Positions 4,746 through 24,985 of a stretch of DNA of 41,549 nt are shown in pieces. The notes under the pieces were generated by a model that was given only the letters and a program-made list of their open reading frames with translations, was not told the DNA's origin and ran no database searches. Numbering within the stretch: the stretch's first letter is position 1; every line of letters begins with the position of its first letter. Origin of the DNA: a virus. The translations under genes were made by a program, and so were the position numbers. The stretch spans positions 24,116 to 65,664 of IMG/VR virus record IMGVR_UViG_3300014050_000025; one strand, 5' to 3'.

Positions 4746-6150
4746 GCCAATTCTGCTCCCATCCGAGGAGTTTATAGCTGTTACGCCGGCCCAGACTCTT
4801 CCGGTAGAAGGTCGGGTCGAACGTGTCCATGCAATCCAGTACTTCGCCAAACTCTTTTTTCGTGCCGTCGGGCGCCGTGTAGATACGACTTACACGACCC
4901 GGACCCTGCACATCGACAATATCACTATCCCTGTCGTCGGCGCGGACAAGAACATTTAACTGTTCAAAGTCCACGCCTGTCGCCCAGACGTCCGTAGCGA
5001 TTACGCGCTTGAGTTGGCCAGACTCGAAATTAGAACGCATGTCGTACTTTTGAAAGTCTGTGAGCGGTTTATAGTCGCTAGGCAGCAAGCCTTTGCGCTT
5101 ATAACCCGAACAGTCGTACGGCGACATGTTTCCATATACGAGGCTGAATTCCGGCAAATGCGCGCCGAGATGAACAGCGTGTTCAATCGTTTCGACGAGG
5201 ATCAAAATCTGATGCGATTCTGGATATCCCCGGACGGCTTCGGCGATGATACGGTTCCGCTCATGGTTTGTCCAGATCCCGTATCGCTTTCTCGCCACTC
5301 GGTTGCTGTAGCGCTCCGCAGGGTTCGAACGCAGCCGCATTGGCAGCCAGTTGACGCGCACCGGAACGACGAGCCCAAGATCCACGGCGTCTTGATACGT
5401 CAGCTCGAACACCATTGGACCGAACAGCGGCTCAAGTACAGCATGAGCGTTATCCATCCGCGCATATGGCGTCGCGCTGAGTCCGTAGTTTCGACTCGTG
5501 CGATATCGTGCGGCCAACGCCGTCGAAAAATTCAGCGTGGCAAGCTGGTGAACTTCGTCCGCAAAAAGAAAATCCGCGTCGCCGTCAGAGTGGGCGAGAC
5601 TGCCGGCGGTGATCACCGTCACGCGCTCCCACTGCTTCCAGCCGTCACCTACGCGACCGACCTTCGGCAATAGGCGCTTCAAACTGCGCACAATTCGCTC
5701 TGCGACGTCTACCGACTTTGTGACCACGTGAATTTTGGCGTCTGGAAACAAGAGCGCCACGGCGCCGATTAGCGTCGTTTTGCCGAACCCCGTCACAGCC
5801 TTGATGATGCCACACGGCGCCCGCGCAATCGTCCGCAGGCACTCTTCCTGTCGAGCGCGGAACGTAATCCGACCCTCCAGATTCTCCCAGCGCGGCGTAT
5901 AGCAGTCGGGCCGCTTTCTTTGACCAGATCTGTCAAGGAGCGTCGTTTGGCAGCCGAGCTTTTTCAGCCGGTTAAACATGCGGGCTAAATAGCCGCTTAA
6001 AACAATTACATGCCCATTTTCCACGCGAAACAGCTTGTACTCTTTCGTCTGGAAAAACATTCGCTGTCCGGTAATCGGGTCGCGACGGGCTTGGCCGTGC
6101 ACCTGCTCTACGTGAGAGTAGCGCAGATCGTGCGTGAGCCGTTTGATCAA
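4696..6150 (-). CDS. SF2 DEAD/DEAH-type helicase, UvsW/RecG-like (body frame)
   Basis: Two RecA-like helicase domains are visible. Motif I is AVTGFGKTT near residue 118, motif II is the DEVH box in FADEVHQL near 177, motif III is LSATPY near 204, and a C-terminal domain carries IATDVWATGVDFEQL and the motif VI-like QGPGRVSR near 436. This is the DExH architecture of T4 UvsW and phage repair helicases that remodel forks and D-loops. The open frame begins only at a TTG (6150), with no Shine-Dalgarno. The expected N-terminal residues are found in another frame that starts at ATG 6235 (see next entry), so the intact protein is probably about 28 residues longer. It overlaps the following gene by 50 bases. 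Confidence 0.85.
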   Translation of the reverse strand: MIKRLTHDLRYSHVEQVHGQARRDPITGQRMFFQTKEYKLFRVENGHVIVLSGYLARMFNRLKKLGCQTTLLDRSGQRKRPDCYTPRWENLEGRITFRARQEECLRTIARAPCGIIKAVTGFGKTTLIGAVALLFPDAKIHVVTKSVDVAERIVRSLKRLLPKVGRVGDGWKQWERVTVITAGSLAHSDGDADFLFADEVHQLATLNFSTALAARYRTSRNYGLSATPYARMDNAHAVLEPLFGPMVFELTYQDAVDLGLVVPVRVNWLPMRLRSNPAERYSNRVARKRYGIWTNHERNRIIAEAVRGYPESHQILILVETIEHAVHLGAHLPEFSLVYGNMSPYDCSGYKRKGLLPSDYKPLTDFQKYDMRSNFESGQLKRVIATDVWATGVDFEQLNVLVRADDRDSDIVDVQGPGRVSRIYTAPDGTKKEFGEVLDCMDTFDPTFYRKSLGRRNSYKLLGWEQNWHDAQRSWRSREADSGE

Positions 6151-12614: not shown

Positions 12615-14189
12615 TTAAGCAGCGCCTGCTACGACGCCACCAAATTGCGTAATGATAGCGTGAGCATCTTCAACAGAAATAGCAAAAAACTCGTTGTCTT
12701 GCCGTTTATCAGCATACTCCCTGTGTAAACGCGTTTCGAGCGCTACACAGTCACCCGTAACAATATACCCCACAAGTCTTAAACCGCCCGGCACAAACGT
12801 CTGACTTTCACGCTGTCGTTCCTCCACAGTTCGGCGCGTGCGTCCAATTTTAATGTAGCCGCAAGTTGGCTCCTGCAAAAAGTAAACATGCTCGTTCGTT
12901 TTTAGTGGCGCTGGTTCGTTTGGCGCCTCTTCACCTAAGAAACCGGTCGGCACGCGAGACAAGTGTTTCGGCACAATAACGGCGCCGGCCCGCAGAATAA
13001 GCTTGGGCTCTTTTCTGCCGACACCGGTCCAGTACAGCGCCATGTGCGAATTTCTCACGTGCGGAGAAATCAAACTCTGTTCATTTAACTTCTTACCAAT
13101 CGAAAACCCGCGACCTTGAATGTTCGCGGCTTTATCCTCCAGCCACTTCTTTGCCGCCGCGTCCGTTTCCTGATCATATCGCTCCTGATGCTTCGCCAGC
13201 ACAATCGGCGTGATCAGGTCGCTGCCGCGGTGCAACATCGAGGCGAACGACGCGAGCTTGAAAACAAACTGATTGACCTCTAACGATTGGTATCCCATGT
13301 ACAGCGGCAGCCGCTGCCCGCGGCAATCGTCTGATGCGTGCTGGTGTTTAATCGTATCTTCAATCGTTTTCAACCGGACGACCGAATTCTGCGACACGGG
13401 GAACATGTTTGGCCCGCGTGTAAACTGATACGAGTCGCCCACAGCAAGCTGCAAATCATCGGGCGCCTGCATCGCCTGATATTTACTGGCTTCCAGCTGA
13501 AACGCCACGATGCTTTCGTGATCGTTGCCGGCAGCAAAACTCGGTTCGTATGGGCGGTCGTTTGGTTCAGGAATGTCTTCGTACACACCGCCGAGCAAAT
13601 AAACCTCGTGGTGATGATGCTCGCCCGGAAGCGGCTTGGTGTACTCGACAAGCGCGCTGCCAATTACGCCAGCAAAAACGTCGACGTTTTTGTTAGTAAA
13701 ATATCGCGTGTTCTCCGGCACAACGTGCGGCTGCCCCACCGTAATCAGAACAGATTTGATTCCGTATGGTTCGTGCCCCTCGGCAAATCGGAACAGCATT
13801 GTGCGCTGCGGGAAGTTCAAAAACGCCGCAGACACGTCGAGCTTCGTATTACGAATCAGCTGCTCGACAATCGGGTAAACGTTATAGAACGGACGCTCCG
13901 TGTTGTACCACTCGTACTCGGATAGCACGCTGATGTGCGTCCGAACAATATCGCCAACAACTTTGTCTGCCCACTCGCCGGGAACAACGTTGCGGTCAAA
14001 AGGTTGCGTCGCCATCTGCTGTAAAAATTCTACATTCGACTGCTTCTTCAGCGCCTGCAGCGCGCGGTCAACCGCGTTTAAATAAGCGTCACGCGATAAG
14101 CCGATTATTTCAGACTCGCCAGCTGCTAGTTGATGTTCAAAGTCAGTTATTGATCGTTGTTTTGCATTTACAAAATCGTGAAAACGCAT
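12615..14189 (-). CDS. Large protein with C-terminal T5orf172/Mug113 (GIY-YIG superfamily) domain
   Basis: 524 residues. The last ~95 residues form a T5orf172/Mug113-like domain: HVYFLQE strand, YIKIGRTRRTVEERQRES (the GIY-YIG-like core with its Arg), LVGYIVTGD, an ETRLHREY helix and NEFFAI. Domains of this group are found in phage and MobE-type nucleases and at C-termini of DNA-binding proteins. The N-terminal ~400 residues are unassigned. They contain SPHVRNSHMALYWTG..RK, which recalls an unnamed 'HWR..HW..YW.G.gR' pattern I remember from phage and plasmid proteins. A separate HHHH run sits near residue 193. It is flanked by the two tRNA genes. Confidence 0.75.
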   Translation of the reverse strand: MRFHDFVNAKQRSITDFEHQLAAGESEIIGLSRDAYLNAVDRALQALKKQSNVEFLQQMATQPFDRNVVPGEWADKVVGDIVRTHISVLSEYEWYNTERPFYNVYPIVEQLIRNTKLDVSAAFLNFPQRTMLFRFAEGHEPYGIKSVLITVGQPHVVPENTRYFTNKNVDVFAGVIGSALVEYTKPLPGEHHHHEVYLLGGVYEDIPEPNDRPYEPSFAAGNDHESIVAFQLEASKYQAMQAPDDLQLAVGDSYQFTRGPNMFPVSQNSVVRLKTIEDTIKHQHASDDCRGQRLPLYMGYQSLEVNQFVFKLASFASMLHRGSDLITPIVLAKHQERYDQETDAAAKKWLEDKAANIQGRGFSIGKKLNEQSLISPHVRNSHMALYWTGVGRKEPKLILRAGAVIVPKHLSRVPTGFLGEEAPNEPAPLKTNEHVYFLQEPTCGYIKIGRTRRTVEERQRESQTFVPGGLRLVGYIVTGDCVALETRLHREYADKRQDNEFFAISVEDAHAIITQFGGVVAGAA

Positions 14190-14747: not shown

Positions 14748-15914
14748 TTAGGAAATTACAGTCAATGAAACAGCGCAATCAGTAAGCGGAAACAAATACA
14801 CACCATGCGCAGAATACTGTCGCGGTCGTTCAAGCCGCATGATTACCTTTTCGTCGTACAGCAGTTTTGCGACGATATACGGCCCCGCCATGCTTGATGC
14901 CGCGTCCAACACAATAACGTACTTTGTGTCTGGCACTGGAAAACGCAGCGTCGCGCCTGATGGCCCAGTGGCGCCTGTTGTAATGCCCATACTAACCGCT
15001 TCCTTGGCGGCGTCAATCACTTGCTCCAGTGACATTACCATACCGCGCGTGGCTACAACTGCGTGATGCGGTTGCTTAAATGTGCCGAGCGCCGACTGCT
15101 GCGTAATGTAGTCGCGTTGTTCGTCGTTCAGCACGCCGGTAGCCCATAACGCCTGTACGCCGATCGTTGCGTACGCCAACAACGCGGGGCACACCTTGGC
15201 GTAATCTTCAGCCGTGTTCGTGCCGACAAAATCTTCTGCCGCCGGACGAACCAGCTCGCCGGTTTCCAATAGCGTCGTCGGAATGCCGGTCGACCCCTCG
15301 AACGAGATTCCGCGAATAGCGGGGCCGCGCTCTCCGTTGGCGAAACGACCACGAAACGTCACAAGTCCCGCGCCGAGCTTTGACGTCACCGCTTCGGTAA
15401 ACGGCGCTTTTTCGAACACGCGGCCGATCATGCGCTCGTTGTAAATCTCAGGAGAACCCGGGTTCACAACCTGAGTATTTTTGTAAGACTCGGCGACCTC
15501 CGCGATCACGGCGTCAAAGATATCTTGCGCCGGAACCTCGGGATCTGCGAGGCCGTTTTCCACCAGATCGGCAAACAATGTCAGCGCCGCGATAATTACG
15601 CCGTCGACGTCTTTTGCCTCGGCGCCGTACTGCTGCGCAATTGCCCGGGCCCGTTTATCGGCGTCGCGGCTAATCGTGGCCTGTGTAAACGAAAACGGCA
15701 CGGCGCCCCAGTTGATGTTGCCAGCGGATTGCGCCAGCTGTCCAAGCGCTTTGAAGAACGCCGGATTTTTCGCCGGTGTCTGTGCTTGGCGAAAAAGCTC
15801 AAGCGTACAGGCCAGCAGTTTTAGCACGCTGTTGTTATCAGCGGCCGTAAATTTACCCAGAAACTCCCGAATAAGAATCGACGGTTTTTGTGATTTGTCC
15901 ACTGAAAACTCCAT
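14748..15914 (-). CDS. Unknown 388-residue protein overlapping the HTH-DHS gene
   Basis: No family recognised. It is a soluble alpha/beta protein with a helical first half (NNSVLKLLACTLELFRQ, IIAALTLFADLVENG) and a Gly-rich strand-forming second half (FRGRFANGERGPAIRGISFE). It has no catalytic signature I can name. ATG 15914 is preferred, with an alternative GTG one codon earlier (15917). No good Shine-Dalgarno is present, so translation probably relies on the 62-base overlap with the HTH-DHS gene upstream. That coupling suggests the two products work together. Confidence 0.72.
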   Translation of the reverse strand: MEFSVDKSQKPSILIREFLGKFTAADNNSVLKLLACTLELFRQAQTPAKNPAFFKALGQLAQSAGNINWGAVPFSFTQATISRDADKRARAIAQQYGAEAKDVDGVIIAALTLFADLVENGLADPEVPAQDIFDAVIAEVAESYKNTQVVNPGSPEIYNERMIGRVFEKAPFTEAVTSKLGAGLVTFRGRFANGERGPAIRGISFEGSTGIPTTLLETGELVRPAAEDFVGTNTAEDYAKVCPALLAYATIGVQALWATGVLNDEQRDYITQQSALGTFKQPHHAVVATRGMVMSLEQVIDAAKEAVSMGITTGATGPSGATLRFPVPDTKYVIVLDAASSMAGPYIVAKLLYDEKVIMRLERPRQYSAHGVYLFPLTDCAVSLTVIS

Positions 15915-17067
15915 CACATACGTTTAAAAGCGTGCTCACGTTCGATCGATAGGTGCCTACAAGTTTGTGCTGTATGCCGTTGTGGCTGGTCACATAGGTC
16001 GCAAAATCTGGTTGAACGTGATTGTCAATAAGAACAGCATGAAAAGCGGGCAGCTCCGTTTCGCACGGTATGGCTGCCCGGGTCTGAAGAAACAAATGCA
16101 AGCCGCGCATAGCGTCGCCTATAAGCAACACTACGCCGTTTTGTGTTGCGCATAGCTGACGTACCTGCTCCGCAAACAGCAACAAGTCTACGTACGTCGC
16201 GGCGCCAACGGCTGCGCCGATCTCAGCGCCACGCGGCGACGGGCAGCAGTGTCCAGCCATCTCGCCAATCTCGACGTGCACGCTGGCGGGGACGCCGAGC
16301 GTGTAGGCCGCGTGGAGCAGGCTACGGGTTTTGTTATCTTGCGGTGCGAACGCCCAGCGCCCGACAGCTTCCGCGTACCCGAACCCCTGACTGGCTGCCA
16401 TGCGTGCCACGTAGTTCAGGTCGCAGCGCGCTGCCGGCTCAGACACTCTGATATCCGCCAATAGCCCCGCGCCAGTAGTGGCGACAGCCGTCACGTACTT
16501 TTTGCGCAACAGCTCAATGGCGACAATGCCGGCGCCGGCATTCAGCGCCGTAGCACCAATGAACAGCAAAACCGGCTGGTCGGCGCTGCGTGCCGTGTGA
16601 ATTACCTGCGCAACGTCTAAGTGCGCGTCTGTAGCATGACAAGAAATTTCGGCGGCGTATGGCGGCATGGCGTCTCGCGGCGGCAGCGATGCGTGTAGCG
16701 GATCAAACAACGGAAACGAACTGTGAAGCTGCGCGGGCAGTGTTAACACGCCGGGAGCATCGGCGGTCGCGTCGAACATGGGGCCGCTGCCCCACAGCAG
16801 CCAATCCGCGCGAATATTCGTGTGACTAAGGATCTGCGCCAGCAGTTGAACCGAGACAGAGTACTGCCGTTTAAATATCTTGCCTAGATGCGTCGAGTCC
16901 AGCTCGATAGCCCGGGCGAACGCCGGCACGCTGCTGGCGAAAAGCTGGTCGCAGATGTACTCGATTCTCTGCAACCACGGCTGGTCGGCGTGCAGTATTT
17001 TGCGGCGCCTGATTTCATGTGCCTGCTGCTGCCGCGCGCTTTGCAGCGACTTTTTGGGCCTTGGCAT
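15853..17067 (-). CDS. XRE-like HTH fused to deoxyhypusine-synthase-like NAD-fold domain
   Basis: 404 residues. Residues ~34-97 look like an XRE/Cro-type helix-turn-helix followed by the ADWLLWGSGPMF tail typical of phage repressors. From ~150 onward the protein follows the deoxyhypusine synthase-like family: LLFIGATALNAGAGIVAIELL, TTGAGLLADI, SVHVEIG with a downstream GAEIGAA..YVDLLLFAEQV and VVLLIGDA. I recall this bacterial DHS-like family, common in Planctomycetes, with 'vHv.IG.Di.H.hp..dGa..G.asy.DF.iFa' in this region. Here the segment reads EIGEMAGHCCPSPRGAEIG, retaining the His but differing around it. ATG 17067 has AAAGGACG upstream; an earlier in-frame extension lies inside the next gene. 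It overlaps both neighbours. A ligand-sensing regulator is plausible but inferred. Confidence 0.7.
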   Translation of the reverse strand: MPRPKKSLQSARQQQAHEIRRRKILHADQPWLQRIEYICDQLFASSVPAFARAIELDSTHLGKIFKRQYSVSVQLLAQILSHTNIRADWLLWGSGPMFDATADAPGVLTLPAQLHSSFPLFDPLHASLPPRDAMPPYAAEISCHATDAHLDVAQVIHTARSADQPVLLFIGATALNAGAGIVAIELLRKKYVTAVATTGAGLLADIRVSEPAARCDLNYVARMAASQGFGYAEAVGRWAFAPQDNKTRSLLHAAYTLGVPASVHVEIGEMAGHCCPSPRGAEIGAAVGAATYVDLLLFAEQVRQLCATQNGVVLLIGDAMRGLHLFLQTRAAIPCETELPAFHAVLIDNHVQPDFATYVTSHNGIQHKLVGTYRSNVSTLLNVCDGVFSGQITKTVDSYSGVSG

Positions 17068-18061
17068 GGGCGTCCTTTTGCTTGAAGTGCCGCACCAATG
17101 AACGGCCGGCACGTTTGAATATGCCTGTACTTGCAACCAACCTGATGTCGTACACGGCGCGCAAGTAGGCAGCCACCAGCTCGTCGTATCCGCTAAGCCA
17201 TTCTTGAGGATAGCGATTGAATTCGCCAAGCACATAGAAAAAGTCTGTCTGCGCCTGATCGAAACAATCAACAACCTTGATCGATTTCATGTAAGTCACC
17301 CGACTTCCGCGCACTCGGACGACCGGTAGTTTTGTCTTTGGCGCGTGCACGAGCAACTGTCGCGCTTCAATCATCCAGCCGTTGTCCTGCGGCACAATGC
17401 ACAGCCGCCACATCGAGGCTTCCGTTTTGCGACACAGCTCGCGGCGACACTTGGCGTACGCCTGTTTCTCGCGCTGCAATTCGCCCCACAGCAGCCGCTC
17501 GTACTGAGCAACTGTTGCGTTGTCGCAGCCGACGTTTGGGTCCCAGCCCGGCGCCGGTACAAACCGCGCGGCGATACGACACGTGACGATAAGCTTTGTA
17601 TCGCTCGCCTGACGGCCGATCTTGCGGATCTTGTTCTTTACGTAGCGATACTGCGCCGACGAAACACGAGCAAAACAGAACGGGCAGAAATGCGCGCGGT
17701 TGCACGGCCGAAACACCGGCTCTTTCTTCCACTTGAAATACAGAAACGACGGCCGGCAAAACAGACAGCGCTGGAACGACAGCCGAAAGCGCTTGATATC
17801 AAAATCTTCCGAGTGCGGATTCAGCTCGCGCCCGTTCGGAAACCAAAGCGCACGTGTCGCCAGCTCTTTCAGTTTGACCGACCACCGCTTGCGCATTGTT
17901 TTCGTGCGGCTAATAACGGCCGCGTTTGTTTTTGGTCCGTCAAGTCCCAGCACAAAGTGCTGAGCGAACGTGTGAGACATGCGCCGACCGACTCGGGCTA
18001 CACGCCAGCGATGCAGCCGATACCGGCGCACAATCGAGACAAAGTAGTCGAACAATATCAC
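17015..18061 (-). CDS. Basic protein with Cys-rich zinc-binding segment (possible Rep-like)
   Basis: 348 residues, strongly basic. Cysteines C99, C102, C120, C126 and C129 (CLFC ... CNRAHFCPFCF) form a likely zinc-binding site, followed by an Arg/Lys-rich helix. A C..CP.C finger near the N-terminus recalls plasmid rolling-circle Rep proteins, but no HUH motif or catalytic Tyr context is evident (only LLVHAP). A Rep relationship is therefore only suggestive. The tail is Ala/Lys-rich (AKAQKVAAKRAAAAG). GTG 18061 with GAGG upstream is chosen; ATG 17980 is an alternative start. Its 3' end overlaps the HTH-DHS gene by 53 bases. Confidence 0.6.
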   Translation of the reverse strand: MILFDYFVSIVRRYRLHRWRVARVGRRMSHTFAQHFVLGLDGPKTNAAVISRTKTMRKRWSVKLKELATRALWFPNGRELNPHSEDFDIKRFRLSFQRCLFCRPSFLYFKWKKEPVFRPCNRAHFCPFCFARVSSAQYRYVKNKIRKIGRQASDTKLIVTCRIAARFVPAPGWDPNVGCDNATVAQYERLLWGELQREKQAYAKCRRELCRKTEASMWRLCIVPQDNGWMIEARQLLVHAPKTKLPVVRVRGSRVTYMKSIKVVDCFDQAQTDFFYVLGEFNRYPQEWLSGYDELVAAYLRAVYDIRLVASTGIFKRAGRSLVRHFKQKDAHAKAQKVAAKRAAAAGT

Positions 18062-22140: not shown

Positions 22141-22438
22141 ACACAGGTTTTTCGGCGGCGTCGCAGGTGGCTGTGTTTGGTGCCCACGTCGGCTGCGTTG
22201 GTTGAGGCCACGGCGGCGGAGGCCATTGCGGCGAGGGCGCCGGCGACCACGGCGACGTGACCGTTTTACTGAGTCGCGTTTCAATACTGTTGAGCCGCGA
22301 CTGCAGCGTCTCTAGTGCAGACCGAATAATCTGCAGCTCAGCCCGAATGTGGGCGATATCAAGCGCCAGATCCGCTTTCTTGACCTTCGGCAGCTGGGCT
22401 TTCTTGCTGCGCTGTTTCTTCTGTGCCTTCTTGGCCAT
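22094..22438 (-). CDS. Basic coiled-coil protein with Pro/Trp-rich tail
   Basis: 114 residues. A Lys/Arg/Gln-rich N-terminus (MAKKAQKKQRSKKAQ) leads into a clear coiled coil (IAHIRAELQIIRSALETLQSRL). Then comes a Pro/Trp-rich segment (SPWSPAPSPQWPPPPWPQP), likely disordered. This resembles small structural or adaptor phage proteins; no family is recognised. AAGGAA lies upstream of ATG 22438. It overlaps the SEC-C gene by 80 bases and the next gene by 47. Confidence 0.65.
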   Translation of the reverse strand: MAKKAQKKQRSKKAQLPKVKKADLALDIAHIRAELQIIRSALETLQSRLNSIETRLSKTVTSPWSPAPSPQWPPPPWPQPTQPTWAPNTATCDAAEKPVYGARGSSWGSIGSEP

Positions 22439-22874
22439 CAGTTAATTCCTTCATTTTGGCAATACGCGCACGAACTAGCTCTATGCCGTGCTCCACACTT
22501 GTCACTTCTACGTACGGCAATTTGGCCTGCAGGTGCTCCCACTTGGTCGGCCCGACGCCGGCGACGTTGATCTCGCCCGGCGCCTGTTCAGCAAAGTCTT
22601 CCAGCGTTGCAATCGTGCCGGCTTCGTCACGAGACGAGAACACGAGGATTTTGTTATCAACGTCGGAAAAGAATTTCACCCCGGTGTTGTCGCAGATCAC
22701 GTACTTGACAGGAGATTCGCCCGTGTCGATGTAGTTCATCGCTTGAGCCTGCTGCGCGTATCCGCTCCGCATTGCCGGGGAGTCCGGGCTGTGGCACACC
22801 TTGAACTTCTTGCCGCTGCCGCATGGGCATTTGTCATTGCGCCGGATCAGGCTCTGGTTGCGAATCGTGCTCAC
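22359..22874 (-). CDS. SEC-C motif protein
   Basis: 171 residues. Residues ~12-28 contain a SEC-C zinc motif (NDKCPCGSGKKFKVCH), the C-x-C-x8-C-H knuckle of SecA tails and of many translation- or protein-quality-linked proteins. The remaining ~120 residues are an unassigned alpha/beta domain (VKYVICDNTGVKFF, VAGVGPTKWEHLQ) with an acidic tail. GTG 22874 has GGAGG at seven bases. The motif probably binds zinc; the target of the protein is unknown. Confidence 0.8.
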   Translation of the reverse strand: MSTIRNQSLIRRNDKCPCGSGKKFKVCHSPDSPAMRSGYAQQAQAMNYIDTGESPVKYVICDNTGVKFFSDVDNKILVFSSRDEAGTIATLEDFAEQAPGEINVAGVGPTKWEHLQAKLPYVEVTSVEHGIELVRARIAKMKELTDGQEGTEETAQQESPAAEGQESGSGA

Positions 22875-23154
22875 TGGGAACCTCCATGTCGATGTCCGGG
22901 TGCAGCTGCATGATGCGGCGGCCGGTTGGGGGTATTGTCATCTTTTCTGGCTGTCCTGCAAGACTAGCCCGCGTGCTTTCAAAACTTTCTGCGCTGACCG
23001 ACCGCGGGTCTCGAATGCGCAGCTGCAGCGTTAAATACATACACGGATCGTGGTTTTCCATTCGTGCGTCGAGCCCAATCAGATCTGCCTGAAAAAGCTC
23101 TTGGCAGGCGTCTGCAATCTGTTTAAACGTGTTGTCGTAGCCGTAGCATGTCAT
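22834..23154 (-). CDS. Small unknown protein
   Basis: 106 residues. An N-terminal alpha/beta part (DNTFKQIADACQELF, CMYLTLQLRIRDPRSV) is followed by a polar C-terminus. The ATG overlaps the upstream stop in ATGA, and the end overlaps the SEC-C gene by 41 bases. No family is recognised. Confidence 0.65.
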   Translation of the reverse strand: MTCYGYDNTFKQIADACQELFQADLIGLDARMENHDPCMYLTLQLRIRDPRSVSAESFESTRASLAGQPEKMTIPPTGRRIMQLHPDIDMEVPSEHDSQPEPDPAQ

Positions 23155-23387
23155 GGGTGAATCGTCACCTGTCCGGTCGTCATGACGCCGTCGACAGCCG
23201 TCATAATCGTTACACCGTCAATCGTGACCCTGCGACCCGTGGCAACACCGTTTTGATGCACGACCACCAGTTCGCCGCCGACCGTGTGCGGGCCAACGCT
23301 TTTAGGCGGCCCCGCGGCAATTACCATCGGCGGATTTTCCGGCGGCGCTGTCTTCTGCGGAATCGTGATCACACCGGGCGCTGTCAT
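23151..23387 (-). CDS. Small beta-rich Gly/Val/Thr protein
   Basis: 78 residues from ATG 23387 with AAAGGAG at seven bases. The sequence is almost all strand-formers and turns (GGELVVVHQNGVATGRRV, TIDGVTIMTAVDGVMTTGQV), suggesting a small beta-sandwich or a PAAR/spike-like fold, though no PAAR metal ligands are evident. The stop overlaps the next start. Confidence 0.68.
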   Translation of the reverse strand: MTAPGVITIPQKTAPPENPPMVIAAGPPKSVGPHTVGGELVVVHQNGVATGRRVTIDGVTIMTAVDGVMTTGQVTIHP

Positions 23388-23502
23388 GCTGAACTCCTTT
23401 GTTGTGGAAAACCAAGTAGCAGACTTTACCGACCGCGCTACGAACCAGCTCATTGTCCGCGATCAGATTTTCAGGGTTCTTCGTGTTGTTCGAGGGTTTC
23501 AT
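23302..23502 (-). CDS. Possible small gene at the head of the cluster (weak)
   Basis: A 66-residue frame starting MKPSNNTKNPENLIADNELV at ATG 23502. The first 40 residues look protein-like; the remainder (after GVQHDSARC) is low-complexity and overlaps the next gene by 86 bases. AGGATC sits only three to four bases upstream, which is poor spacing. It may encode a short leader or be non-coding. Confidence 0.35.
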   Translation of the reverse strand: MKPSNNTKNPENLIADNELVRSAVGKVCYLVFHNKGVQHDSARCDHDSAEDSAAGKSADGNCRGAA

Positions 23503-23525
23503 GATCCTGTCTCGTGTGCCGCCGC

Positions 23526-23541
23526 GTTTTGATATCAAAAC
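23526..23541. promoter_or_regulatory. Perfect 16-bp palindrome (operator candidate)
   Basis: GTTTTGATATCAAAAC is perfectly self-complementary and lies about 25 bases upstream of the first start codon of the small-gene cluster. The size and AT-rich centre suit a dimeric repressor site. No matching second copy with the full 16 bases was noticed in the window. Confidence 0.4.
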
Positions 23542-23659
23542 ACATGCGAGCAAAAATGTTGGGGGGTAAATTGACCTCAAAATTGAATGCAAATAGCTGC
23601 CAGCAAAGCAGTTACGACGCGCGTATTTTGCAAATTTTGTCCGGGTTGTGCGGACCTAG

Positions 23660-23680
23660 TGTAGGTACTTCGTACCTACA
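23660..23680. repeat. 9-bp perfect hairpin with 3-base loop
   Basis: TGTAGGTAC and GTACCTACA pair exactly around TTC. It has no T-run on either side, so it is not a simple terminator. It is one of several perfect inverted repeats in this gap. Confidence 0.6.
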
Positions 23681-23688
23681 AGGATGCA

Positions 23689-23731
23689 GACATCTTTTGA
23701 GTCTGCAAAGACTCAAAAAGTATTGGATGTC
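23689..23731. repeat. Nested hairpin with alternative pairing
   Basis: The inner stem TTTTGAGTCT/AGACTCAAAA (23695-23704/23709-23718) closes a GCAA loop on the + strand and TTGC on the minus strand. An outer GACATC/GATGTC pair (23689-23694/23726-23731) surrounds it. GCAGAC at 23686-23691 can instead pair with GTCTGC at 23701-23706, which would break both, a switch-like arrangement. Confidence 0.5.
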
Positions 23732-23811
23732 TAGCGCATGATCGGGGGGTTGTTCAATTTGTGTAGGATTGATTTTGCCGGCAATAACTGTAGTTTTCAC
23801 TAATCACCCGA

Positions 23812-23829
23812 ATTTTACTACGTAGTGAA
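23812..23829. repeat. Palindrome centred on ACTACGTAGT
   Basis: A perfect 10-bp palindrome (23817-23826) is extended on both sides by TTT/AAA after one mismatch. It could be an operator half-site pair or a small hairpin upstream of the cluster. Confidence 0.4.
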
Positions 23830-23883
23830 ACTAGCGTTTTTGGTAGTTTGAGCAGACTAGAGAAGCGCCAACTCTTGGATATC

Positions 23884-23928
23884 AAAAAAAGAGATGGCGT
23901 AGGGGCGGGTGTTTGCCCGCCCCTACGC
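23884..23928 (-). terminator. Rho-independent terminator
   Basis: A perfect 13-bp stem, GCGTAGGGGCGGG/CCCGCCCCTACGC (23897-23909/23916-23928), has a six-base loop. On the minus strand it is followed after six bases by a run of seven T. It lies 16 bases beyond the ParB-like gene's stop and isolates that transcript from the hairpin region. Confidence 0.92.
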
Positions 23929-23944
23929 GTATCTCAACTAGGTG

Positions 23945-24985
23945 CTACCTAGTGAACTTCTTTGCCTGTCCGGGTCGCTGCGTTTTCTTGACCAGCAGCG
24001 CATGCTCGTCAAGCAGGTAGTTTTCCATGTCTACCTTGGCAGCGTTGGTCCAGCTGCCGGTACGGCCGCCGGGACTGATAAACCGCTCTACACAGCCAAG
24101 GATCTTGGCCAGTCGTTCGTAGCGCTGGTTTGCACCGCCGCCACCCTTCTTAGCCATGATCTTGGTGACCTCGTAGACCGCGTCGTGGGTCTTGCCGTTC
24201 TTGACGCCTTCATCGTGCTGGTGTCGGCGGAAGAACTCGACAACATCGTCGACGTTCTTGCCCAGCTCCGTGTACTTGAAGTGCGCCAACAGGAACGCCG
24301 CAGTCGGCGGCCCAGAGAACCGCGCCTTTGTTGGCATAATGCTATCAAGAGCGCGCAACTGCTCCTGAAAGTATTCAACGCAGGTCGCCACAGAAACATG
24401 CTGAATGTTTGGCGGGGCGTTCGGGATCTCGTACAGGCGGTGAATTTCTCGCAGCGCTTCCTTCATCGCCGCCACAATGCCCTTGCAGCCAGCAAAGAAA
24501 GACGACTCGTACGAGATGTTAAACTGCTTGAACGCGCTGTACAGTTGGTCCGCGGCATCCTTGGTCTGGCCGCCGCTGTCGTACGTGTAGTACTCCTCAA
24601 TGACCTCCTGCTCGTCCTTGACGTAGGTGATCTTCACGGTCACGTAGTCAGGCACGGCGTCCGTCAGGCCGTTCATCCAGCCGTAGGTGCGCGTGTGCGC
24701 ATCAAGCTTGAACTCCTTTCCGTCTTCCGTCACGGCCATGTGGACCGTGCGGTGCGCTTCACGCAGCTTGGACAAGTACTTCTTTGCCTTGTTCCAGTGC
24801 TTGGCTGTGTCGCGCTGCACCGGCGCGTCCGGTACATCCGCCCACTGCTTCAGCGTCATAGTCCGCGTCTCGGGACGACCAAGCCGGCGAGCTGCGCTGC
24901 TCTTCTTTTGCGGCGTAATAGTCGACACCTTGTTGGCTGACCGCGACGCCATGCCTCTGCTCTGCGGGTGCTCCTTGCGAGCCAT
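23945..24985 (-). CDS. ParB/sulfiredoxin-fold candidate, DNA-binding
   Basis: 346 residues with a basic N-terminal tail (PQKKSSAARRLGRPETR). Residues ~45-130 read VPDAPVQRDTAKHW ... EFKLDAHTRTYGWMNG ... VTVKITYVKDEQEVIEEYYTYD. I recall this as a phage/plasmid family with a ParB-like layout (a QRD motif, a KLDGHTR motif and a 'v.vy.v' strand). The C-terminal half is helical (VDDVVEFFRRHQHDEG) with a basic end (VKKTQRPGQAKKFTR). AAGGATAA precedes ATG 24985. A strong terminator follows it. It may act in genome partitioning, transcription or as a nuclease; the sequence does not decide. Confidence 0.6.
   Translation of the reverse strand: MARKEHPQSRGMASRSANKVSTITPQKKSSAARRLGRPETRTMTLKQWADVPDAPVQRDTAKHWNKAKKYLSKLREAHRTVHMAVTEDGKEFKLDAHTRTYGWMNGLTDAVPDYVTVKITYVKDEQEVIEEYYTYDSGGQTKDAADQLYSAFKQFNISYESSFFAGCKGIVAAMKEALREIHRLYEIPNAPPNIQHVSVATCVEYFQEQLRALDSIMPTKARFSGPPTAAFLLAHFKYTELGKNVDDVVEFFRRHQHDEGVKNGKTHDAVYEVTKIMAKKGGGGANQRYERLAKILGCVERFISPGGRTGSWTNAAKVDMENYLLDEHALLVKKTQRPGQAKKFTR

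Follow-up and report, generated by a model that had tools for sequence, protein, structure and literature searches.

The deoxyhypusine synthase (DHS) superfamily is known for its enzymes in eukaryotes, archaea and bacteria; DHS and AgrE use NAD, and the ligand sites of DHS lie between subunits. Regulators that join a helix-turn-helix (HTH) to an enzyme-derived sensing domain are known as ROK repressors and as NadR, in which an XRE HTH is combined with an NMN adenylyltransferase/kinase. With regard to viruses, a 2023 BLASTP survey of polyamine enzymes across the virosphere detected no viral homologue of the DHS-like SpeY (PMC9992855). Here we describe a phage protein in which an HTH of the repressor type is followed by a domain with a predicted DHS fold.

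The fusion gene and its two phages

The window, i.e. the whole stretch of 41,549 nucleotides analysed here, comes from a virus record of 65.7 kb (IMGVR_UViG_3300014050_000025). The fusion ORF runs from an ATG at 17067 to a stop ending at 15853, exactly as the first-pass annotation had placed it, and lies in the middle of a long block of early/replication genes on the minus strand (Table 1). The upstream ORF matched no Pfam family, the downstream ORF neither a Pfam nor a PHROG family; the upstream protein carries CxxC-type cysteine clusters (CLFC, CPFC). The window also encodes, at 12615-14189, a protein of 524 aa that ends in a T5orf172/MUG113 GIY-YIG-like nuclease domain and whose N-terminal part of ~430 aa is unmatched. 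Further downstream of the fusion gene, homologues of SbcC, SbcD, DnaB and primase are encoded on the same strand, a neighbourhood that would suit a DNA-binding protein for maintenance or replication, acting with these SbcCD-, primase- and helicase-like genes and not as a transcription factor. We consider this very unlikely, as the HTH is closest to those of repressors and no replication-protein domain was found in the fusion protein.

Table 1. Features of the fusion gene, its neighbours and the upstream intergenic region (window coordinates)
Feature	Position	Strand	Basis or remark
Fusion gene P0001	15853..17067	-	404 aa; translation; 68% identical full-length relative; dN/dS about 0.18
Shine-Dalgarno-like AAGGA	17073..17077	-	5 nt before ATG; read from sequence
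XRE/CI-type helix-turn-helix, residues ~30-98	16774..16980	-	profile, BLASTP, low-confidence AF2 helices
Linker, residues ~99-144	16636..16773	-	lowest conservation between the two phages: 51% identity over 100-144
Predicted DHS-fold domain, GSU2086-related, residues ~145-390	15898..16635	-	profiles, hhalign, AF2, Foldseek
GHCCPSPRG, residues 272-280	16228..16254	-	bacterial relatives: HEHPNxDG at the same place
Upstream ORF, 348 aa	17015..18061	-	3' end overlaps fusion gene start; relative: 66% identical, also overlapping
Downstream ORF, 389 aa	14748..15917	-	5' end overlaps fusion gene end; 59% identical in relative
Candidate operator or RNA hairpin TGTAGGTACTTCGTACCTACA	23660..23680	.	conserved at syntenic place in relative; one copy per record
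Candidate operator GTTTTGATATCAAAAC, perfect 16-bp palindrome	23526..23541	.	window only; not conserved at aligned place in relative

A full-length relative of the protein, 68% identical, is encoded in a second record of 205 kb (L001), where both neighbour genes stand in the same order with the same overlaps. This second record belongs to a genuine tailed phage with baseplate-wedge and tail-fibre proteins, a DNA polymerase and a terminase large subunit, which rules out, for the relative, that a bacterial contig was taken for a virus. A chance ORF or a fusion artefact is also ruled out, because the fusion and the overlapping gene order recur in the second phage and dN/dS is low, at about 0.18 over the whole fusion gene of the two phages, with the HTH and DHS parts similarly constrained. 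Residues 211-335, the central part of the DHS-fold domain, are the best conserved between the phages (75% identity; dN 0.17 versus a near-saturated dS of 1.5), which argues that this domain is not decaying and has been put to another use.

No tyrosine integrase was found in either record, both of which may be fragments; on this ground the protein is unlikely to be a classical lysogeny repressor. The carrier is probably a large, non-lysogenic phage. In the 65.7-kb record (G000) the DNA polymerase ORF (22233-24098; L130 2233-4098) has 621 aa versus 1054 aa in the relative and adjoins a 460-aa unassigned ORF; the polymerase is perhaps split or interrupted.

The N-terminal helix-turn-helix

Library searches with the single protein matched the HTH weakly (phrog_9710, 2e-4; transcriptional-repressor PHROGs, 0.05-0.09), and the N-terminus of the relative matched HTH and repressor PHROGs as well as Pfam Phage_CI_repr (0.088). 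A profile made from the two phage proteins matches over residues 47-98 a 248-aa ORF of a bacterial genome (E=3e-5), in which Pfam finds HTH_3 (2e-8) and Peptidase_S24, i.e. a CI-type repressor. In BLASTP each phage protein is 33-40% identical to this S24 repressor (E=4e-8), none of 500 shuffles reached the real score, and the phage tail ADWLLWGSGPMF corresponds to ANWLLTGNGPRY in the repressor. By these sequence comparisons, residues ~30-98 are homologous to the HTH of CI/S24-type repressors, and the earlier proposal of an XRE-type, phage-repressor-like HTH at the N-terminus is borne out by profile, BLASTP and shuffles alike. An AF2 model of the HTH alone from two sequences, of a quality too poor to use, places helices (30-44, 48-55, 61-66, 73-81 and 87-91) in the XRE order and with the expected spacing, but at low confidence (pLDDT 33-50). 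The fusion protein would bind DNA via this HTH.

The C-terminal DHS-fold domain

The NCBIfam model NF052581 (GSU2086_dom) matches the window protein with E=6e-26 (91.6 bits) and the relative with E=1.5e-28 (100.2 bits), both below its curated cut-off of 250 bits; on these scores both phage proteins are distant relatives of the GSU2086 family and not members. A profile built from 80 bacterial members finds the phage protein with E=7e-25 at Z=1e5, hhalign aligns residues 145-383 to the family (prob 99.7, E 7.5e-27) and reaches E 3.5e-6 against DHS, and the real protein scores 90 bits against the family model, whereas none of 500 shuffles of its C-terminal part exceeded 4 bits. In addition, the AF2 model of the domain has a pLDDT mostly of 80-97, and its best Foldseek match in the PDB is the DHS of P. 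horikoshii (E=8.2e-7, prob 1.00, TM 0.40-0.53), followed by ArgZ, trypanosome DHS, AgrE (NAD-binding according to the PDB title 6lrg) and an archaeal LOR/SDH protein. A DHS fold is predicted with confidence for residues ~145-390, and profile, domain model and Foldseek together support the DHS/SIR2-type fold proposed in the first-pass annotation.

The assignment to a DHS-like family held for the fold; the nearest family is GSU2086 and not the polyamine-transferring DHS. DHS sequence models are weak on the fusion protein (0.04-0.17), and the cut-offs of the DHS families are missed (PF01916, 12.1 bits versus 27; TIGR00321, 11.2 versus 304). The DHS motifs SWGK, with the catalytic lysine, and LGGGxxKHH are absent from the 404-aa sequence, in which the C-terminal position-by-position alignment is uncertain; SWGK is present in a bacterial DHS (L119) and in PDB 7cmc. 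Family scores and missing motifs rule out a true DHS or polyamine enzyme.

The bacterial GSU2086 family and what the phage domain has lost

The 80 bacterial members (L008-L087) come from Chloroflexota, Planctomycetota, Armatimonadota, Latescibacterota, Acidobacteriota and other groups, and are mostly ~320 aa long without an HTH. PF21570 was matched in all 32 of 32 family members, and a PDB search with the family profile hits the C-terminal domains of ArgZ/AgrE (E 4e-5). Within the fetched flanks, same-strand neighbours include a PfkB/HldE-type kinase at no fewer than 56 of the 80 loci, a HAD phosphatase at at least 38 and a SIS isomerase at at least 28, and in Geobacter sulfurreducens GSU2086 itself sits between hldE and gmhA (PMC5585712). 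GSU2086 is a widespread DHS/ArgZ-related family embedded in sugar clusters of kinases, phosphatases and isomerases, and these neighbours suggest that its natural substrate most likely belongs to sugar-phosphate metabolism. In one relative (L103, 535-2289) a HAD phosphatase is naturally fused to a GSU2086 domain, which points to a shared pathway step. Neither phage record contains a PfkB kinase, so that the GSU2086-type sugar gene context is absent from them, or a NAPRTase-type salvage gene.

Of 81 columns that are kept in ≥95% of the bacterial members, 29 are retained in the window protein and 31 in the relative, most of them glycines or residues of the core. The near-invariant residues H67, H98, D186, HEHPN, MARN and RP.K (L008 numbering) are missing, and a stretch of ~19 aa with the conserved GQFGLWxETG is deleted. 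The replacement of the usual H.HP..DG by GHCCPSPRG, first noticed from the sequence alone, is real: where the bacterial relatives read HEHPNxDG, the phage relative has EHAYPSGIG. The best reading of these alignments is that the phage domain is no longer a standard enzyme and is derived from, or close to, the GSU2086 family.

An active enzyme or modifier of altered chemistry, which the HTH would recruit to DNA or a partner and which might be concerned with NAD, host sugar metabolism or counter-defence, would accord with the strong purifying selection, with the use of NAD by DHS and AgrE, and with the bacterial relatives, which are presumably enzymes because of their location in sugar kinase/phosphatase/isomerase clusters. 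However, with the near-invariant residues gone, no SWGK-type catalytic lysine motif and neither a salvage gene nor a PfkB kinase in either record, we regard such an activity as quite unlikely. The loss of most pocket and family-invariant residues, together with the ~19-aa stretch, could also mean that the protein binds DNA and that its DHS-fold domain is no more than a ligand-free scaffold for oligomerisation, the fold being known to form dimers and tetramers, as in human DHS (PMC7226451). This too we think unlikely, since the identity of the central part between the phages includes non-structural residues such as KKYVTAVATTG and IGDAMRGLHLFLQTRAA, which is more than a scaffold needs.

Occurrence of the fusion

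DHS-like matches to the two-phage profile were found in 143 of 343 genomes of one bacterial phylum and 40 of 338 of another; no fusion was found among these 681 sampled genomes, where, among the matches listed, none spans the HTH and the one HTH-only match is the S24 repressor described above. The BFVD predicted viral structures gave no DHS-like fold match at E<=0.001, and viral scans, including those with four more queries, returned only the L001 relative and no third member, although such scans, which depend on short stretches of exact peptide identity, overlook distant relatives. The fusion of an HTH with a DHS-fold domain is known from two members only, the window phage and its relative. 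In the full-text literature, 'deoxyhypusine synthase' and 'helix-turn-helix' occurred together only in one unrelated metagenome paper, and a literature search on nickel-pincer ornithine cyclodeaminase found nothing. The XRE-type HTH with an enzyme-derived sensor is a known design, as in NadR, and for its DHS-fold version no described counterpart turned up in literature, BFVD structures and sampled genomes, in agreement with the initial claim of a two-domain architecture not known from any described regulator.

Candidate sites upstream of the gene block

The gene block is preceded by an intergenic region of 1 kb, which contains both GTTTTGATATCAAAAC and a pair of tandem hairpins, TGTAGGT-ACCTACA and GTCCG-N7-CGGAC (window 23639-23680, minus strand; L001 4905-4975). 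The two phages have these hairpins at corresponding positions, with the stems kept and the loops altered, and TGTAGGT-ACCTACA occurs once in each record. As the hairpins fold well as RNA (z-scores -3.9 and -3.0), an RNA role is as possible as an operator role. Candidate sites to which the fusion protein may bind are TGTAGGTAC-N3-GTACCTACA or GTTTTGATATCAAAAC. As a genome-wide operator TTTTGATATCAAAA is unsupported, since the majority of its other copies are intragenic, where the string can arise from FDIK-type codons, and its excess over simple shuffles ignores codon use. In the same region, a near-identical intrinsic terminator, GCGTAGGGGCGGGC..CCCGCCCCTACGC (window 23897-23928; L001 ~4750-4783), is followed by a shared TTTTTTGATATCCAA.

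Proposed role and comparison with known systems

The reading that we prefer, and to which we give about an even chance, is that of a phage DNA-binding regulator in which the degenerate DHS-fold domain mediates oligomerisation and is probably the sensor of a small metabolite. It draws on the match of the HTH to an S24 repressor and the DHS fold obtained by profile, AF2 and Foldseek, on the recurrence of the architecture in a genuine tailed phage under similar constraint on both parts, on the mostly structural glycines among the 29 retained family columns, on the lack of an integrase in either record and on the conserved palindromic elements upstream of the gene block. Against it we count the low-confidence HTH model, the possible RNA nature of the hairpins, the small number of two members and the gene overlaps, as a gene that overlaps both neighbours may not regulate from its own promoter.

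In such a regulator, the N-terminal XRE/CI-type HTH would recognize a palindromic site, the DHS-fold domain would form a dimer or tetramer and probably bind a small metabolite, and the metabolite would alter DNA binding. Made from the middle of the early/replication block, the protein would most likely tune phage transcription during infection and would not be a lysogeny repressor. DNA binding, oligomer state, ligand, target sites and regulatory role are all features that we infer. Given the kinship with GSU2086 and the loss of the DHS Lys/His motifs and family invariants, the sensing of NAD or a polyamine, as first suggested, is a guess; a sugar phosphate or an NAD-type ligand may be at least as likely as a polyamine. 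As to NAD binding, the comparison of motifs with the bacterial family and with DHS gives an ambiguous picture. It is possible, at somewhat less than an even chance, that the protein represents a new class of ligand-responsive factor of large phages, with a DHS-fold sensor for a host sugar-phosphate or nicotinamide ligand, and the first member of the DHS superfamily to be reported from a phage. If so, a DHS-fold sensor would be a new type in the short list of enzyme-derived transcription regulators, and the phage protein would give a handle on what the uncharacterised GSU2086 family binds.

With CI/S24-type XRE repressors the fusion shares the HTH and the WLLxGxGP tail, but it has a DHS-fold domain in place of their C-terminal peptidase/dimerisation domain, and its gene is neither accompanied by an integrase nor beside a divergent promoter pair. 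The GSU2086 family shares the fold and aligns over residues 145-383, whereas none of its 80 bacterial loci has an HTH and the phage domain has lost HEHPNxDG, GQFGLWxETG and MARN. The fold is also common to DHS and the homospermidine synthase SpeY (PF01916, TIGR00321), with which the first two strand-loop motifs match weakly and in register, but the phage domain lacks the SWGK lysine and LGGGxxKHH and its single-sequence score is at noise level. The ArgZ/AgrE C-terminal domain (PF21570) and the archaeal LOR/SDH protein (3c2q) have the same fold, although the PF21570 match is marginal (0.065, in the relative) and the phage protein has no hydrolase domain. A DHS-family protein as regulator is represented by the trypanosome DHS regulatory subunit (a PDB 6dft chain, so described), which presumably regulates the DHS enzyme instead of being the enzyme and, unlike the phage fusion, has no DNA-binding domain. 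The NadR and ROK repressors, although bacterial and with a sensor fold unrelated to DHS, offer the parallel in way of working, an HTH joined to an enzyme-derived sensing domain.
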